DNA from: Sedimentisphaerales bacterium
GTDB taxonomy: Bacteria; Planctomycetota; Phycisphaerae; Sedimentisphaerales; Anaerobacaceae
NCBI GenBank assembly: GCA_016932095.1
Contig: JAFGDN010000011.1
Location: forward strand, 1-64,000
Direction of reading: 5' to 3'
DNA length: 64,000 nucleotides
The notes under the pieces are model-generated. The model worked only from the letters and a program-made list of their open reading frames with translations, was not told the DNA's origin and did not search any database. Made by a program: the position numbers and the translations under genes. Positions 1,929 to 51,682 of the stretch are shown in pieces (the first letter of the stretch is position 1; every line of letters starts with the position of its first letter).

Positions 1929-2736
1929 CGGCGTTGGCAAAAATGGTCATACCATCGGCGTCCTGGTCTTGTGTCTTGTGTCTCGTGTCTTGCCTGTCCT
2001 CGCATGTCGCAGGCGGGGGTGTCTTTAATCGCGTCCATCGCGGGTGCTGGGTATGTCTGATATGTCTTTCGGGATGCGGCATAAGGCCGAGAACCCTTCC
2101 AGTTGTGTCGGTCAAGCCGGCGATTGATTCAAAAGAGCCGTTCGGATTGACAGGGTAATCGCCGACGTTTCCGTTTTCATCAACATATTTGAACGCGACA
2201 AAGCCCTCCATCCCAAGCTTTTCGAGCGTCTGTTTGTCTCTGGTAACCACCTTGCCTTCGCCGTGAGCGATGGGCAGATAAATTCTTCTGCCCTGCTCTA
2301 TAAAAACGCATCTGTCGGTTTCTGGGGCGAGATAAACCCACCTGTCTTCGAATTTATTGCTGTCGTTATAGGTCACGGTGACGGCCTGTCCTGACGAATC
2401 TGCGAAGGGCAGTATCCCCGCTTTAACCAGGACCTGAAAACCATTGCAAATCCCTAAAACCAGCTTGCCGTCGTCGATAAACTTTCGTATGCCGTCGTAG
2501 ATGTGATGTCTGATTTGATTAGCCAGTATTTTGCCCGCCGCGACGTCGTCGCCGTAGCTGAAGCCGCCGGGGATTACTAATATCTGGTAGCCATCGAGGA
2601 TGGTCTTATCCTCGATAATCCTGTTTATATGGATTCGGTCCGCCTGCGCCCCCGTCAATTCGAGGGCGAACTGCGTTTCGAGGTCGCAGTTAATCCCCGC
2701 TGCCCGAAGGACTATTGCTTTTACATTTTCCATCAT
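1903..2736 (-). CDS. purQ: Phosphoribosylformylglycinamidine synthase, glutaminase subunit
   Basis: PurQ is a class I glutamine amidotransferase that supplies ammonia to PurL for the FGAR to FGAM step of purine synthesis. Seen: VIPGGFSYGDD around 55-64, LGICNGFQVL with the nucleophile Cys97, and PHPERH with catalytic His221 and Glu223. At 277 aa it belongs to the longer PurQ type. Residues 244-260 (TCEDRQD... to DQDAD) are encoded by a heptamer array and interrupt the normally continuous C-terminal segment just before DGMTIFANAVKYIK. The gene starts 14 nt after the end of the oxidoreductase gene on the same strand, so co-transcription is likely. purL is not in the window. Confidence 0.93.
   Translation of the reverse strand: MMENVKAIVLRAAGINCDLETQFALELTGAQADRIHINRIIEDKTILDGYQILVIPGGFSYGDDVAAGKILANQIRHHIYDGIRKFIDDGKLVLGICNGFQVLVKAGILPFADSSGQAVTVTYNDSNKFEDRWVYLAPETDRCVFIEQGRRIYLPIAHGEGKVVTRDKQTLEKLGMEGFVAFKYVDENGNVGDYPVNPNGSFESIAGLTDTTGRVLGLMPHPERHIRHTQHPRWTRLKTPPPATCEDRQDTRHKTQDQDADGMTIFANAVKYIKANL
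1967..2001. repeat. Heptamer array inside purQ
   Basis: Phased units tcttgtg, tcttgtg, tctcgtg, tcttgcc, tgtcctc on the + strand. It is translated in frame as part of PurQ residues 244-260 and lies between two conserved PurQ segments, so it looks like an insertion into an existing gene. Confidence 0.75.
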
Positions 2737-13424: not shown

Positions 13425-14396
13425 ATGATGAGCGAGCAATTTGAAAAAGTGGGCGAGGGATTACTGGTTCGTGCGCCTGGGAAAATCAATTTATCTCTAT
13501 TGGTAAAAGGCAAGCGGCCTGACGGGTTCCATAATATCGAATCGATAATGGCGAAGATTGATTTGTATGATGAGATACTCATCAAGCAGAAGACGGAGGA
13601 CGGAGGACAGAGGACAGAAGAAAGAACAAAGAACACAGAACAGAGAATGCAGAACATAGAATTGATATGCAAAGGGGAATATAAAGTGCCGGAGGGTGAG
13701 GATAACCTGGTTTATAAGGCGGCGGTAGAAATATTAAAAATCAAAAATCAAAAATCAAATAGTAATGAGGAGAGAAATACAGGATTAAAAATAACATTGA
13801 CGAAAAATATGCCGGCGGGGTCGGGACTGGGGTCTGGCAGCAGCGACGCGGCGGCGACGCTGTTGGGTATCAACAAGTTTTTCGGAATGGGTCTGGGTAA
13901 AAAAGAGCTGAGGTCATTAGCGGCGAAGTTAGGCAGTGACGTGGCGTTTTTTCTCGACGGGCCAATAGCTTTTTGCACCGGAAGAGGTGAAAAAGTGAAA
14001 AAATTAGAGAAATGTGAATTTAGGGTATTTTTGATTGTCCCAGACGTAAGTGTTTCCACCAAAAGGGTTTACGAGAATTATCGTCACGATGAAAGCCGAT
14101 ACAGACGCCTTCGAGAAGAAATAAACATATATATTGAAAAAAAGCGTCTTGATTTAATCAGCGGTTTGTGCGCAAATATATTAGAGGAAAGCTGCTTCGC
14201 ATTGCATCCGGAACTTGGGGTATTGAAAAAGAGGATTGAATCGCTTGGAATCAGGCCGGTATGTCTGAGCGGAAGCGGTTCGTCGATGTTTGTCTTTATT
14301 AATGACGCGAACCGGGAAAGAGCAGAGACATATAGAAACAGGATTGAGCGAGAATTAGAATGCACGAGTTTTATCGTGAACAACAACAGTTGGTGA
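13419..14396 (+). CDS. ispE: 4-diphosphocytidyl-2-C-methyl-D-erythritol kinase
   Basis: IspE phosphorylates CDP-methylerythritol in the non-mevalonate isoprenoid pathway (GHMP kinase family). Seen: PGKINLSLLVKGKRPDGFH near 20-38, the GHMP ATP motif PAGSGLGSGSSDAA at 132-145, and the C-terminal LSGSGSSMFVF. At 325 aa it exceeds the usual 280-300 aa. The extra residues are about 57-79 and 106-121, both encoded by heptamer arrays and both in spacer positions between conserved motifs. ATGs at 13425 and 13428 are alternative starts; the 13419 ATG lies in a palindromic repeat and no good Shine-Dalgarno site is visible. spoVG follows after 22 nt. Confidence 0.93.
   Translation: MTMMSEQFEKVGEGLLVRAPGKINLSLLVKGKRPDGFHNIESIMAKIDLYDEILIKQKTEDGGQRTEERTKNTEQRMQNIELICKGEYKVPEGEDNLVYKAAVEILKIKNQKSNSNEERNTGLKITLTKNMPAGSGLGSGSSDAAATLLGINKFFGMGLGKKELRSLAAKLGSDVAFFLDGPIAFCTGRGEKVKKLEKCEFRVFLIVPDVSVSTKRVYENYRHDESRYRRLREEINIYIEKKRLDLISGLCANILEESCFALHPELGVLKKRIESLGIRPVCLSGSGSSMFVFINDANRERAETYRNRIERELECTSFIVNNNSW
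13587..13656. repeat. Ten-unit heptamer array inside ispE
   Basis: Perfectly phased units: cagaaga, cggagga, cggagga, cagagga, cagaaga, aagaaca, aagaaca, cagaaca, gagaatg, cagaaca. It shares the 16-nt word aacagagaatgcagaa with the intergenic array at 25892-25982. Confidence 0.9.
13736..13756. repeat. A-rich heptamer array inside ispE
   Basis: Three identical units aaaaatc, followed by aaatag. It is the second repeat insertion in ispE, about 80 nt after the first, just before the GHMP motif. Confidence 0.8.
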
Positions 14397-21400: not shown

Positions 21401-24400
21401 TTAGGGGGCCTGCCACAGCCAGTCATCGCAGAATATGGCAAGGTCATATATATCGACGTCGTTATCATCATCGAGAGATATAAGCTCGTTTGGCTCGTTC
21501 CAGGCGGGGGCAAACAGCGAATAATCGAATAAATTAATGGTTTTATCGCGGTTGTAATCGGCCTTAGGCCAGTAAAATTCATCCGCGCCGAAATCGACCC
21601 GTAAGGCAGATGTTCCAAAAAGGATTCTGCGCTGACCATCTATGTCCGTATCGTTAAAATCATTGAAATTCGGGTCGCCTGCGTCTATGCACGGCGAATT
21701 TGACCTGAGATGAAAATCATTGTTATCAGCATCAATAAAACAGGGGTCGCCATCAAACCACGAATAGTTGGACATTTTGGTAACACCTTTAATGCCACCC
21801 AAGAGAATGCAATTGGATACTAAAGGATTAATTCCACCTGCCCTATTGATGCAATATTGCTCGCTGACAATTGTGGTGTTACGAATAATAGCTAACGCGC
21901 CATTCGTAATATAAACTCCTGCGTACCCATTGCGGTAAATCCAATTATTTTGAATAATGGAATTAGAATCACCACGTAGCCATATTCCTTCTTGATTCTC
22001 AAAAATCTTACATCTTATGACGACCGTAGAAAAAGAATTATGAATAGAAGCATTTTGATTATAGATGCCGTACATATTATTATAAATTGAACAATCTTGT
22101 ACCGTAACAGGGGCATTGACCTCTCGAAGGTGTATTCCAAATCCATTGTCGCATAAGATACTGTTTATAACTTTCGTTTCTGAAGAATAATTCACGTCTA
22201 TCCCAAAATCGTTGTTATCCTGAATAATGGATTCAGCGACAATGAAACTCGAAAAGTTCGCTGATATCCCGGCTCTATTCCCTGTTATATGACAATTCGA
22301 GACCAAGAGATTGCTATCGACGACTTTGATACCTAAATAGCCCCCAACGATTTTGAAGCCATCAAAGATGTTATTTGGACTAAGATCTAAAGCCGTCACT
22401 ACATTTTGATAGGAAATACCTGTTCCTTTGAGAGTTGTTTCTTTATTGGTATTATTAAAGTTGCGTTGGGAAATAGATGTCTCGTTACCATCAAAATGAC
22501 CATATAATGTAATGCCATCAATGAGTTGGAAAGTCGGATTGTTTGCTGGGACGGATGGCATATAATTTCCGTCAGCGACCCAGATTTGTGTAATATTAGA
22601 ATCGATACTTGCCCTGTCTAAGGCGTCCCGTAAATCGAGATACGCATCAAACCAAGATATTCCTGTATCAGCACCATTTAACCTGCTACAATCGACAAAA
22701 ATCACCCCTGGAATCCAAATACATACAGGAATATTTACTTCAGAAGATTTATATATGGAATCGCCGCGAATTTCACAAATGTTTGTAATTACACTACAGG
22801 GTTCCGCCTGATAATTTACCTGTGTATTTATTGTAAATGTTCTCTGGCCATTTGGAGGGAGATTGCCGATGTTCCAGGTTACGGTTCGCTCACCTGCATT
22901 ATAGACACCCTCCGGCGAAGATGAATTATAGTCAAGTTCTATCGGCAGATAATCAACAATACTGACGTTTTTGTCAACGGCCCCATTTGCATCATAAGTA
23001 ATTGTGTAGGTTATAGGTGTCTCGGGCGAAACGCAGTTTTCATCGTTGATATTATCAAAAATATCGAGGCAAACACTCCCCTGGTTCCACGTGCAGACGG
23101 GCGTATTTACTTCAGAGGAACGATAATAAAGGTCGCCGTCTATCTCGCAACGATTAGTTAAAACAATACCGGATTCCGCCTGATTGTTGACCATAACATT
23201 GATTGTAAAAACACCGTTGTCATCGGGAGTTATATTTCCAATATCCCAGGTTACGGTATCATCGAAGGGATAGTACTCACCCTCAGGAGAAGATGAAATA
23301 TAATCCACATCCTCCGGCAGATAATCAACTATCTTGACGCTACTGTCGAAAACACCATTGGCATCATAAGAAATCGTGTAAGTTATGGGCGAAAAAGGAA
23401 ATACGCAGTTGCCGTCATTTACATCATCAATTTTATTGATGTAAATATCTCCCGGGTTCCACGTGCAAACGGGCGTATTTACTTCGGCGGAACTTTCATC
23501 GTAATCGCCTTCAATTTCGCAGAAATTTGTGATGATGCTATTGGATTCTGCCAGAATATTGACCTGAGCATTTAGCGTAAAGACGCCGTTATCATCGGAA
23601 GCGATAGTGCCAATATTCCAAGTTACAGTACCATCAAAGGGATAATATTCGCCTTCCGGAGAAGATGAAATATAAGTTAGCTCGTCCGGCAGGTAATCGA
23701 CGATTTTGACGTTACTATCGGCAACGCCATTGGCATCATAGAAAATAGTATAAGTTATTGGTGAAAATGGTAATACACAGTTGCCGTCATTGATGTCATC
23801 GACCTTAATAAGGTTTAGGCCAAGTTTTTGGGAAACATTTCCAACCAAGGAATAAAGCTGAACAGGTTGCGGAATGTCAAATCCGTTTACTTCTACCGTC
23901 CATGTACCACTGACGGGATTATCAACGCAAACCTGCTCAATATTATTAAGACGGTCTTCTCCATGAACGGCTGGATAATCCTCATGCCCACTGTTGACGT
24001 CGAGAACCCAGGGATAATATCTTGTACCGTTCGGGTCCCTGACAATCAAATCCAAATCATTAACGAGCGCTTTTTCCGCAGCCGGATCTCCCGGATAATC
24101 ATCCCAGACCAGTGTTATTTTTAATTTTGGCTGGTTCGGAAAAACAATAAAAGAAAATTGTTTTTTGTCCCCCTTGTCAACAATCGTATCTTCCAGTATA
24201 ATATTATTCAAATCTTCGCTTATAAAATCTACCGCATCTTTTATATTGACTCTTCCCCAGCCATAAGTGAAATCCGGGCCGCTATTGCCTAAATCCACCG
24301 CAGTATGAAGCAATATGGCCTTTATCGTTGAAGGCAAAGGGTCTGGTTGTCCTGTGTGGGTGTTTCTCCAGTGCTGTAACATCAGGGAAGCACAACCTGT

Positions 24401-25891: not shown

Positions 25892-25982
25892 CAGACAGAG
25901 GACGGAAGACAGAGGACGGATAACAGAGGGCAGAAGACGGTGGACGGAAGACAGAATGCAGAACAGAGAATGCAGAATGCAG
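25892..25982. repeat. Thirteen-unit purine heptamer array
   Basis: Phased units such as cagacag, aggacgg, aagacag, aggacgg, ataacag, agggcag, aagacgg, then aatgcag repeats. It is the purine-strand counterpart of 1163-1274 and shares a 16-nt word with the ispE array. Confidence 0.9.
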
Positions 25983-26123
25983 AGAGAATCAGTAGGGGCA
26001 GACCTGCCTGCCCTCGAATGTTGTTATCGTGGGTGTGTCTGCCCTGAAGGATATGGCATAAAAGGGTCAAATAAAGTATAGTGGGCAATAAGCTAAGGTG
26101 AAGAATCCAAAGTGAGAAAAAGA

Positions 26124-48316: not shown

Positions 48317-49297
48317 ATGAGAAAGGTGTTTTGGGGTTCATTAGTTTGGATTTTACTGCCTTCGATAGTATCAGCAAATCAATCAACAGAGAGGTTTGAG
48401 AAGGTCGTCAACAGGATGGTCAAGGCCATTAACGACGCGAACTGGCCCGCCGTCCAGGCGGATTTCGGAAAGGAGATGCTGGACTTTTTTCCTCCCGAGA
48501 AGTCAAAACTATTCTTCGAAGGAATGGTCGCCCAATACGGTAATATTGAAAAGCTGGACTCCGCCCGATACATTCCTCCCGACAAGGCGGTTTTCCCGGC
48601 GCATTTTGAACGCGGCTTTCTCGATATAACGATTGTTTTAGATAAGCAGGACAAAATCATAGGCCTGCTGTTTCTACCTCATAAGGCAGACGTGCCGATA
48701 GTAGAAAAACATCAGACGGAACTCTCACTCCCATTTAAGGGTAAGTGGCTCGTGGTTTGGGGTGGTGACACCAGAGAGCTTAATCAGCATCACGATTTTC
48801 CAAACCAGCAATTTGCTTTCGATTTGCTTGGCGTCGATGACAACGGCAAAACCCGTAAAGGACAAAGCAATACAAACGAGGATTATTTCGCCTTCGGCAG
48901 AGAGATAATCTCGCCGGCTGACGGAAACGTGACGGACGTTATAAACGGGGTGCGTGATAATGTTCCCGGTTCGATGAATCCCTATTCGGCCCTCGGAAAC
49001 GCCGTCGTTATTCAGAATCGGGAGAACGAGGTCTCGATTCTGGCGCACCTGAAACTTGACAGTATAAAAGTTAAGGCCGGGGACAAAGTCACGAAAGGCC
49101 AGGTAATCGGTCTCTGCGGCAATTCGGGCAACTCCTCCGAGCCGCATTTACATTATCACCTCCAAAATACGCCGATAATCCAGGACGGCACAGGCATCAA
49201 ATGCCATTTTGAAAAAGTTACTATAATCAACAACGGGCAACAGCAGGAAAAAACAAATTATTCGCCGGTAAAAGGCAATGTCATAATGGCGGATTGA
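48317..49297 (+). CDS. M23-family peptidase with N-terminal DUF3887-like domain
   Basis: 326 aa from the ATG at 48317, preceded by AGAGGTG. Signal peptide, then a helical domain (about 30-125, RMVKAINDANWPAVQADFG), then a LytM/M23 fold with zinc ligands in HHDFPNQQFAFD and HLHYHL. The other key element is YSALGNAVVIQN followed by GDKVTKGQVIGLCGNSGNS. M23 enzymes cut peptidoglycan cross-links or glycine peptides; in planctomycetes the substrate is uncertain. Its 3' end overlaps the lipB-lipA gene by 40 nt on the opposite strand. Confidence 0.85.
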   Translation: MRKVFWGSLVWILLPSIVSANQSTERFEKVVNRMVKAINDANWPAVQADFGKEMLDFFPPEKSKLFFEGMVAQYGNIEKLDSARYIPPDKAVFPAHFERGFLDITIVLDKQDKIIGLLFLPHKADVPIVEKHQTELSLPFKGKWLVVWGGDTRELNQHHDFPNQQFAFDLLGVDDNGKTRKGQSNTNEDYFAFGREIISPADGNVTDVINGVRDNVPGSMNPYSALGNAVVIQNRENEVSILAHLKLDSIKVKAGDKVTKGQVIGLCGNSGNSSEPHLHYHLQNTPIIQDGTGIKCHFEKVTIINNGQQQEKTNYSPVKGNVIMAD

Positions 49298-50832
49298 GTC
49301 GAAGGCATTTCCGCGAAATATGAGCTTCGGGCGAATGGTGCTGATATAATCCACTTGAACCCAAGCTCAATCGCCTTCTGCTTCCACCAGTCAAATTTCT
49401 CCGGCGTTATGTATTCAACGACCTCAAGCGAGTCCTTCGAGGGTTTCAGATACTGGCCGATAGTCAGGCGGTCACAGCCGACACTGCGCAAATCCTTCAA
49501 GACCCGTTCCACCTCATCCTCAGTTTCGCCTAAGCCGAGCATAATCGATGATTTCGTGGGAATGCCATCGTAACTTTCTTTTGCCAATTTCAGGAGATTT
49601 AGTGAACGCTGATAATCGCCGCCTGCCCTTGCCTCTGTATACAGGGACGGAACTGTTTCCACATTATGCGCGAAGACAAACGGCTGTGCTTCCGCGAGAA
49701 TCTCAATCGCCTCGTTTTGGCAATCGCGAAAATCGGGCGTCAGAATTTCATATTTGGTATCAGGATATTGCCTGCGGACCTCATTGATACAATCTTGGAA
49801 ATGACTTGCCCCGCCGTCGGGCAGGTCGTCGCGGTCAACGCTTGTTATGACCAGATATTGCAAGCCGAGGTTTTTAACCAGTTCCGCAATTCTGGTCGGT
49901 TCAGTTGAATCTATCGGTTTGGGTTTGCCTTTCGCAACGGAACAGAATTTACAGCCCCGCGTGCAGATATTGCCTAAAATCAAAACCGTCGCCGTGCCTT
50001 TAGCCCAGCACTGGCCCCGGTTTGGGCAGTTCGCGCTCATACATATTGTCTCAAGACCGAGCGCATTTACGATTTCACTTGTCCTGCTGTATTCCCCTGC
50101 CGATGGCATTGGTCTTCGCAGCCAGTCAGGAAGTCGTCGTATTTTTTCTGTCTTCTGTCTTCTGTCTTCTGTCTTCTCAAAATGTTCAACAAGTAATGTA
50201 TTTAACCTTTCTTTCACTTCTTGCATCGGAAGTTTTTTGCCCGTTTCATTAAGCACTGACGTCATTTTTACATCGTCAAGGCCGCAGGGGATAATGTAAT
50301 CAAAGATGCTCAAATCGTTGCGGATATTTATCGCCATACCGTGGTGCGTAATCTGCCTTGAAATGCGAACGCCGATTGAAGCGATTTTTTTATCATTCAC
50401 CCATAGACCCGGAAAACCCTTTCGTCTTTCGCTTTTTACATCAAGCTGTTCCAAAAGCTCGATACCAATCTGCTCGAGAGTTCTGATGTATTCGCTGACA
50501 CCGAGGCGTAATTGCTGGAGGTTCAAAATCGGGTAAAAAACGATTTGGCCGGGGTTGTGGGCGGTTGTGCCGCCGCCCCTGCGGATTTCAACTACATCGA
50601 TTCCCTTTTCAGCAAGTTTATCACGCCCAATAAGCAGCTTATTCGCGTCTTGCCTTGCCCCCAAAGTGATTATCGGCTTATGCTCAACCATCAGGGCTGT
50701 ATTGCCTATTTCATTTCGTCGCCTCTGTTCAACCAGCAGTTGCTGTGTTTGCAGCGTTTTATGAAAATCCTCCAGTCCGTAATCAAGTATTTGCATCGAA
50801 TTGAATCGAACTTTGATGACATTTGCAGACAT
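49258..50832 (-). CDS. lipB-lipA: Fused octanoyltransferase and lipoyl synthase
   Basis: 524 aa, a fusion of the two steps of lipoate synthesis on apo-proteins. LipB part (1-218): EIRRGGGTTAHNPGQ, the KIASIGVRISRQITHHGMAIN segment (ends KIASIGV and HGMAIN), and the active Cys183 in IPCGL. LipA part (about 232-524): RLPDWLRRP, the auxiliary cluster Cys264-x4-Cys269-x5-Cys275 and the radical-SAM Cys290-x3-Cys294-x2-Cys297, then the C-terminal RSSYFAE. The joining residues 219-231 (EKTEDRRQKTEK) are encoded by a 4-unit heptamer array. The start at 50832, 1 nt after the birA stop, is preferred over 50847. LipB moves octanoyl to the carrier domain and LipA inserts sulfur. Confidence 0.92.
   Translation of the reverse strand: MSANVIKVRFNSMQILDYGLEDFHKTLQTQQLLVEQRRRNEIGNTALMVEHKPIITLGARQDANKLLIGRDKLAEKGIDVVEIRRGGGTTAHNPGQIVFYPILNLQQLRLGVSEYIRTLEQIGIELLEQLDVKSERRKGFPGLWVNDKKIASIGVRISRQITHHGMAINIRNDLSIFDYIIPCGLDDVKMTSVLNETGKKLPMQEVKERLNTLLVEHFEKTEDRRQKTEKIRRLPDWLRRPMPSAGEYSRTSEIVNALGLETICMSANCPNRGQCWAKGTATVLILGNICTRGCKFCSVAKGKPKPIDSTEPTRIAELVKNLGLQYLVITSVDRDDLPDGGASHFQDCINEVRRQYPDTKYEILTPDFRDCQNEAIEILAEAQPFVFAHNVETVPSLYTEARAGGDYQRSLNLLKLAKESYDGIPTKSSIMLGLGETEDEVERVLKDLRSVGCDRLTIGQYLKPSKDSLEVVEYITPEKFDWWKQKAIELGFKWIISAPFARSSYFAEMPSTQSAIMTLPFTGE
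50147..50177. repeat. Exact heptamer array at the lipB-lipA junction
   Basis: Slightly more than four perfect copies of tctgtct/gaagaca, exactly at the boundary between the two enzyme domains. One unit gained or lost would shift the lipA frame relative to lipB. Confidence 0.85.
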
Positions 50833-50833
50833 T

Positions 50834-51631
50834 TTAATCCCTGGCAATTGTCGTATGAGCCGAGTGGAACATTCTTATGGCGCCTGAGTCGAGATTCAGG
50901 ATGAGGCCGTGCCGCGGGTCAACGCCGATGCAGTTGCCGGTAAACCGCCTCCTGTTATATACAAGCGAAACCCTGTGATGTAATTGAGTGCTCAGTTTTT
51001 GCCACCGTTCGATAACTTTTTGCTCATTGTTCTCCGCAATTGTCAGCCAATGGTCAATCGAGGCAAGTAATCTTTTAATCAGCGAAATCCTGTCGATTTT
51101 TGAACCCGTTTCAATATCGATGCTCGTCGCCGTCTTTTGCAGGTCGGGGGGGAAGTCATCTTTTTGCTGATGGCAGTTAATGCCGATGCCTATGATGAAA
51201 GCGGTATGTTTGCCGATTTTTTTTGATTCGACAAGAATGCCAGCAACTTTTTTATTGCTAAGGATAACGTCATTCGGCCACTTGATTCTTGCTTCCGTTT
51301 TTACGCATTTCCCGATTGCCTCGGCCGTCGCCGCCGCGATTGTCAACGGGAGCGTTTCGACATCCAGTTTTGACTCTATTAGCAAAATCGAGCACAATAT
51401 GCTCTTGCCGAAGCAGCCGAACCATTTATTGCCCCCTCTGCCGCGTCCGGCTGATTGCTCCTCCGCAAGAACGACAAGGCCGTCGTTGGCTTTGTTTTTG
51501 GCGTATTGCGCAGCGATATCACTTGTGCTTGCGGTGCTGGAATAAACGATGACCTTTTTGCCAATTCGATTCGTTTTAAGATTTGCTTTTATCTTATCAG
51601 TGTCCAGCGCAATCAAAACACCCTTTGTCAT
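50834..51631 (-). CDS. birA: Biotin--[acetyl-CoA-carboxylase] ligase
   Basis: 265 aa. Seen: SSTASTSDIA, EQSAGRGRGGNKWFG, KWPNDVILSNKKVAGILVE and IGIGINC, the biotin-protein ligase core, plus a small C-terminal SH3-like domain. No N-terminal DNA-binding helix is present, so it is a class I ligase, not a repressor. It attaches biotin to the carboxyl-carrier protein. The gene precedes the lipBA fusion by 1 nt; both make cofactor-modified proteins. An ATG at 51640 adds three residues. Confidence 0.9.
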   Translation of the reverse strand: MTKGVLIALDTDKIKANLKTNRIGKKVIVYSSTASTSDIAAQYAKNKANDGLVVLAEEQSAGRGRGGNKWFGCFGKSILCSILLIESKLDVETLPLTIAAATAEAIGKCVKTEARIKWPNDVILSNKKVAGILVESKKIGKHTAFIIGIGINCHQQKDDFPPDLQKTATSIDIETGSKIDRISLIKRLLASIDHWLTIAENNEQKVIERWQKLSTQLHHRVSLVYNRRRFTGNCIGVDPRHGLILNLDSGAIRMFHSAHTTIARD

Positions 51632-51647
51632 TCCATGCACTCAAGTG

Positions 51648-51682
51648 AAAATCACAAATCATAAACCAAAAATCATAAATCG
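51648..51682. repeat. A-rich heptamer array between birA and nadC
   Basis: Five phased units: aaaatca, caaatca, taaacca, aaaatca, taaatcg. It occupies most of the 53-nt gap between the birA and nadC reading frames. Confidence 0.75.

Follow-up and report, generated by a model that had tools for sequence, protein, structure and literature searches.

A LipB-LipA fusion gene in a Sedimentisphaerales genome carries in its linker one of many period-7 tandem arrays whose units differ between close relatives

The window analysed here, a stretch of 64,000 nt from a Sedimentisphaerales genome, harbors on its minus strand a single reading frame for octanoyltransferase (LipB) and lipoyl synthase (LipA) (positions 49258–50847), which comprises 524 aa from the ATG at 50832 or 529 aa from the TTG at 50847 and ends with the stop at 49258. 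The LipB domain (LplA-B_cat, PF21948; 50203–50763, minus strand), delimited by domain search and conservation, is followed by a linker of residues 219–231 (the EDRRQKTEKIRR region; 50140–50178, minus strand), placed by the alignment of relatives and a structure model, and by the radical SAM domain of LipA (49309–50139, minus strand), recognised by its CX4CX5C, CX3CX2C and RSSY motifs. A first-pass annotation had claimed that one 524-aa frame holds both lipB and lipA, and this was confirmed: the motifs are present, and the frame belongs to both families with 146.2 bits for TIGR00214 (lipB; NCBIfam cut-off 83.55) and 377.2 bits for TIGR00510 (lipA; NCBIfam cut-off 310.25). In the LipB half, K149 and C183, which we take to be the catalytic pair of the family, are invariant among the 15 fused relatives compared. 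In the LipA half, C264, C269 and C275, C290, C294 and C297, and RSSY at 502–505 are all present, and the cysteines and RSSY of the fusion are invariant or almost so in the 15 relatives, in keeping with the earlier statement that all catalytic cysteines are there. The LplA-LipA fusion family NF053790 likewise joins a lipoyl/octanoyl-transferring domain to lipoyl synthase, but its first half is LplA whereas here it is LipB; the match to this model (379.1 bits) covers the LipA half only, against a whole-model cut-off of 800. An AlphaFold2 model made with the 15 fused relatives has a mean pLDDT of 78.7, and residues 221–234 form its longest internal segment with pLDDT below 50 (the others being 266–268 and 463–472); because the pTM is 0.57, the relative placement of LipB and LipA is not to be taken from it. 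The protein is predicted to be a bifunctional LipB-LipA enzyme of two domains and a short flexible linker, and this prediction forms part of a reading that is graded below as a whole.

Codon 219 of the 524-aa frame marks the start of a perfect GAAGACA array (50146–50177, minus strand; 32 nt, 4.6 units, 100% match), so that the earlier description of the linker as an exact heptamer array was accurate. The array is well above chance, since Markov-simulated sequence yielded no period-7 array at the same threshold. Read in the sense direction the heptamer is free of stops in all three frames; as 7 and 3 are coprime, translation of a regular array yields one and the same 7-residue repeat whichever frame is read, and a heptamer without sense stops can therefore occupy coding DNA. 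In silico, a stop is reached within about 45 codons when one, two or four units are lost or gained, and the loss or gain of three units preserves the LipA frame; the idea that a single 7-nt slip unlinks LipA accordingly holds as arithmetic only. From the array up to the conserved LPDWLRRP motif, LipA has no in-frame ATG, GTG or TTG, the first start codon in the LipA frame 3' of the array being the ATG within RRPMPSAGE. No sign of natural switching was found at the array, and all same-genus versions are in frame. Assignment of the array to the Rickettsia-type palindromic elements was rejected, as it lacks a palindrome and its sequence varies among relatives.

The closest named records are the Phycisphaerales MAGs PMZJ01, PLLM01 and CAIODZ. 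All four same-genus genomes sampled carry the fusion, as does the sister lineage L014, and the unit at the same linker position is GAAGACA in the source genome (G000), AAATCAT in G025 and G026, and GAAATAC in G024; with the sister lineage, the units other than GAAGACA are AAATCAT, GAAATAC and ATACGAG. The junction comparison proposed in the first-pass annotation, for which the same fusion with an unrelated linker would speak against its account, did go against it, if in an unexpected form: the same fusion is found and the linker sequences differ, but the 7-nt period is shared. Were the AAATCAT arrays of G025 and G026 regular, TAA would fall in frame at two units, and precisely those two units end in A or G and not in T (read by hand). 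Between L007 and L005 the difference is exactly three units, a junction step of 21 nt; 21-nt steps are also suggested by lengths of 59 and 80 nt among split relatives, but with shared descent still included this quantisation does not serve as a test. Among 72 junctions, a lag-7 array (segment score of at least 9) occurs at 19 and an array of any other lag at one, the shuffle expectation for lag 7 being 0.05.

The array is found in genes of both organizations. In split relatives (L022, L029, L095, L099 and others) it lies 3' of the lipB stop, inside an N-terminal extension of lipA, and some fused relatives (L006, L013, L015 and L021) are without an array; thus, the array is neither required for the fusion nor a product of it. 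L009 and L018, which are fused, and L099, which is split, retain a nearly identical CGAGCGA array and differ by 11 nt in a 5' segment that holds the lipB stop; the three cluster together (support 91, open fork). In a tree of 72 LipB and LipA pairs, the source genus and L014 form an all-fused group (support 97), and there are 10 changes between fused and split labels, at least two of which are forced by well-supported branches; because this was a quick tree search with 27 of 68 inner branches open, the direction and number of fusion events are unsettled. Since the genus and L014 are all fused yet the junction unit differs, the fusion would predate the GAAGACA array. Comparison of these sequences thus points to a fusion that is probably older than the present array, which may merely be tolerated in the linker; this, too, is part of the reading graded as a whole. 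LipB-LipA fusions occur in several lineages, Desulfosarcina among them, and because of this recurrence the fusion by itself is a modest curiosity; no publication on a LipB-LipA fusion was recognised in the literature search.

Other small repeats are also found at these loci. A palindromic insert of about 60 nt, in frame and with the ends CCCCGTTAGAAAT and ATTTCTAACGGGG, precedes FEILTPDF in LipA of L009, L018, L098, L099 and L100; its product is PVRNSQTDKNTxRREKISNGV or a variant thereof, and in kind it resembles the Rickettsia palindromic elements. Next to the heptamer arrays in the linkers of L014, L019, L095 and L100 and in purQ of G025 and G026 stand hairpin-like pieces, among them CCCTGAGCGAAGCCGAAGGG and CCGCAGGACACCTTGCGG; these junctions therefore gather several kinds of small repeat.

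Period 7 dominates the tandem repeats of these genomes, where arrays fill spacers as well as protein linkers and their unit differs between close species at fixed sites. With a lag-match detector, the 801 kb sampled from G000, about half of it from contigs picked for GAAGACA matches (28 of the 48 period-7 arrays), yielded 48 arrays of period 7 compared to none of period 6, two of period 8 and five of period 9; the 350 kb picked regardless of such matches gave 14, 0, 1 and 4 arrays of periods 7, 6, 8 and 9 respectively, and Markov sequence gave no period-7 array. Same-genus genomes hold 2.0–3.1 period-7 arrays per 100 kb, and none was found in 137 kb from seven single-contig members of the family. 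The arrays are therefore dispersed, above chance and above other periods, as is characteristic of bacterial heptanucleotide tandem repeats. They are diverse in sequence (36 unit classes among the 65 arrays of a first sample), and certain units recur: G000 holds GAAGACA-type arrays at some 20 or more places, matches of this type occur very unevenly in 42 of 89 family genomes, and AAATCAT is found in all four same-genus genomes. Reversing the GAAGACA pattern provides no control, since the reversed unit is a rotated form of the original. Genome G069 has 233 matches to the GAAGACA pattern compared to 0–1 in its congeners G067, G068 and G071, which suggests a recent expansion in G069. In G000, 21 of the 48 arrays overlap called frames and 27 are intergenic with about 88% of the sequence called coding, a non-exclusive enrichment in spacers; the share of arrays in frame is an approximation, as genes were called by a longest-frame heuristic. 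Stop-free units were in excess within reading frames (26 of 28), but this was discarded as circular evidence, since frames are called by their openness.

Several further sites illustrate how the arrays are distributed. Within the window, a heptamer array lies inside purQ (1966–1990, minus strand), where G025 and G026 have other heptamer units at the same site, and a second array, of the AAATCAT type, occupies the birA-nadC spacer (51649–51681) and is absent from three same-genus relatives. Repeat detection also found the intergenic arrays CCTCCGT and AAAATAG (1171–1322) and the period-7/14 arrays AGACAGAGGACGGA and CAGAATG (25893–25983), and the arrays CAGAGGA/ACAGAAC and AAAAATC (13587–13759) lie at or 5' of the start of a GHMP-kinase frame. 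The valS gene contains (CGTCGCT)4 at a place where the sequence of same-genus relatives is plain, with a net gain of 9 nt; argS has an ATCGAGY array that is missing in its relatives; and a mtaB-like gene carries in-frame heptamer arrays with units that differ at one site among G000, G024 and G025. Given the valS, argS, purQ, mtaB-like and birA-nadC cases, the lipBA linker is one of many array sites. Two other features were noted: valS of G024 (L205) is interrupted, at about residue 477, by an extra segment of about 90 residues with respect to same-genus relatives, which is not a heptamer array, and positions 23079–23791 of the window hold a tandem duplication (period 372 nt, 76% match, 1.9 copies).

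Taken together, the observations are best explained, and with good probability, by period-7 arrays of fast turnover that fill permissive sites, one of which is tolerated in the linker of an older lipBA fusion. Such arrays would arise and turn over where sequence is unconstrained, that is, in spacers, gene ends and the linkers or loops of proteins, and the lipBA linker DNA would be one instance of this genome-wide class. Among arrays in coding DNA, a change in length would persist only if its net effect left the frame intact, and the role of the linker may be limited to spacing; the segment of low model confidence largely coincides with the linker and counts for its being tolerant. The arrays presumably form by slippage or by repair synthesis with a 7-nt step. 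Since units recur across loci, a preference for certain sequences or copying from one site to another must be at work as well, and the data do not separate their contributions from that of slippage.

In the account given by the first-pass annotation, the fusion arose when the array removed the lipB stop, and slippage of its units switches LipA on and off. The array does stand exactly at the junction, it is perfect, so that slippage is possible in principle, and the change of a single unit breaks the frame; the origin by stop removal is nevertheless not borne out, as fused relatives have other units. The fusion is common to the genus and its sister lineage while the unit differs, nearly the same array persists across the fused/split change between L009/L018 and L099, every same-genus junction is in frame, and LipA has no start codon of its own between the array and the first conserved motif, all of which leaves this account very improbable. 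That the two genes were joined by an assembly or sequencing artefact could be suspected from a source genome drafted in 94 contigs, and the annotation had itself allowed for an error that masks a stop codon; since the fusion recurs in frame in three other same-genus genomes, with differing linkers, a hidden stop or assembly error is refuted in practice and its probability is negligible.

If selection acted on the protein for a linker that is charged and flexible, any repeat that supplies one would be favored, which agrees with the hydrophilic and mostly basic linker peptides (EDRRQKT, RAMSHKPR) and with the low model confidence in the linker. Arrays of this kind are common in non-coding spacers, though, a period of 7 nt has no reason at the protein level and several fused relatives are without an array, so that this explanation is hardly probable either. 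A stronger case, if still somewhat unlikely, is that the arrays are copies of a few mobile or gene-converted heptamer elements, inserted or copied from site to site as in the cyanobacterial heptanucleotide repeats. The recurrence of a few unit families at many loci and genomes, including GAAGACA in almost half of the family genomes, AAATCAT in each of the four same-genus genomes and the abundance in G069, argues for it; the number of unit classes in the first sample, the lack of any target duplication or shared flank seen at the arrays, and the fact that these substitute for local sequence with net lengths of, for example, +9 or -6 nt, argue against it. Fast turnover of period-7 arrays at permissive sites is therefore retained as the preferred explanation.

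An excess of heptanucleotide repeats in bacteria is known, and the less familiar part is the in-frame turnover of the unit at one site. Earlier work observed, without explaining it, that tandem repeats in many bacteria favor a length of seven (PMC4679880; PMC4692102). Sister species supply matched sites at which the period is constant and the unit has changed, inside genes with a traceable frame, and because of these sites the 7-nt step becomes testable, as local growth versus copying from elsewhere. The arrays also offer a simple route from repeats to linkers in bifunctional enzymes. A more far-reaching and rather doubtful extension is that some process acting in this lineage in fixed 7-nt steps, such as a repair or translesion polymerase, might continually write new arrays into spacers and protein linkers and so make them a standing source of linker peptides in conserved enzymes.

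No publication on heptamer repeats in Planctomycetes was recognised in the literature search, and comparison has to be made with other groups. Over-representation of long simple sequence repeats of heptanucleotides was described in bacteria by Mrazek et al., 2007 (as cited in PMC4679880 and PMC4692102), and polymerase slippage in 7-nt steps has already been proposed for them (as cited in PMC4679880). As far as these citing papers describe them, those repeats are, like the present ones, 7-nt tandem repeats in genomic excess; the arrays found here differ by their many unit families per genome, by an overlap with reading frames in nearly half of the cases and by orthologous sites with differing units. 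Families with a single unit are reported from cyanobacteria, Xanthomonas, Beggiatoaceae and Geobacter (PMC4679880; PMC4692102; PMC2700814). The TAACTGA and GGGGAYT repeats of Calothrix are likewise dispersed short heptamer arrays, some of them translated as 7-residue repeats, but each cyanobacterial study deals with one fixed unit and its accessible text reports no conserved enzyme in whose coding sequence the unit is replaced at a given site (PMC4679880; PMC4692102). The GGACCGG elements of Geobacter metallireducens resemble the present arrays in having about four tandem heptamers in 49 places within and between genes, and differ in that they keep one conserved unit and are read as regulatory RNA, whereas the units here vary (PMC2700814). 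Finally, the Rickettsia palindromic elements (Ogata et al., as cited in PMC10969869) are also small in-frame repeats in housekeeping protein genes, but in that account they are about 150 bp long, conserved in sequence and palindromic, whereas the heptamer arrays described here are neither conserved nor palindromic.
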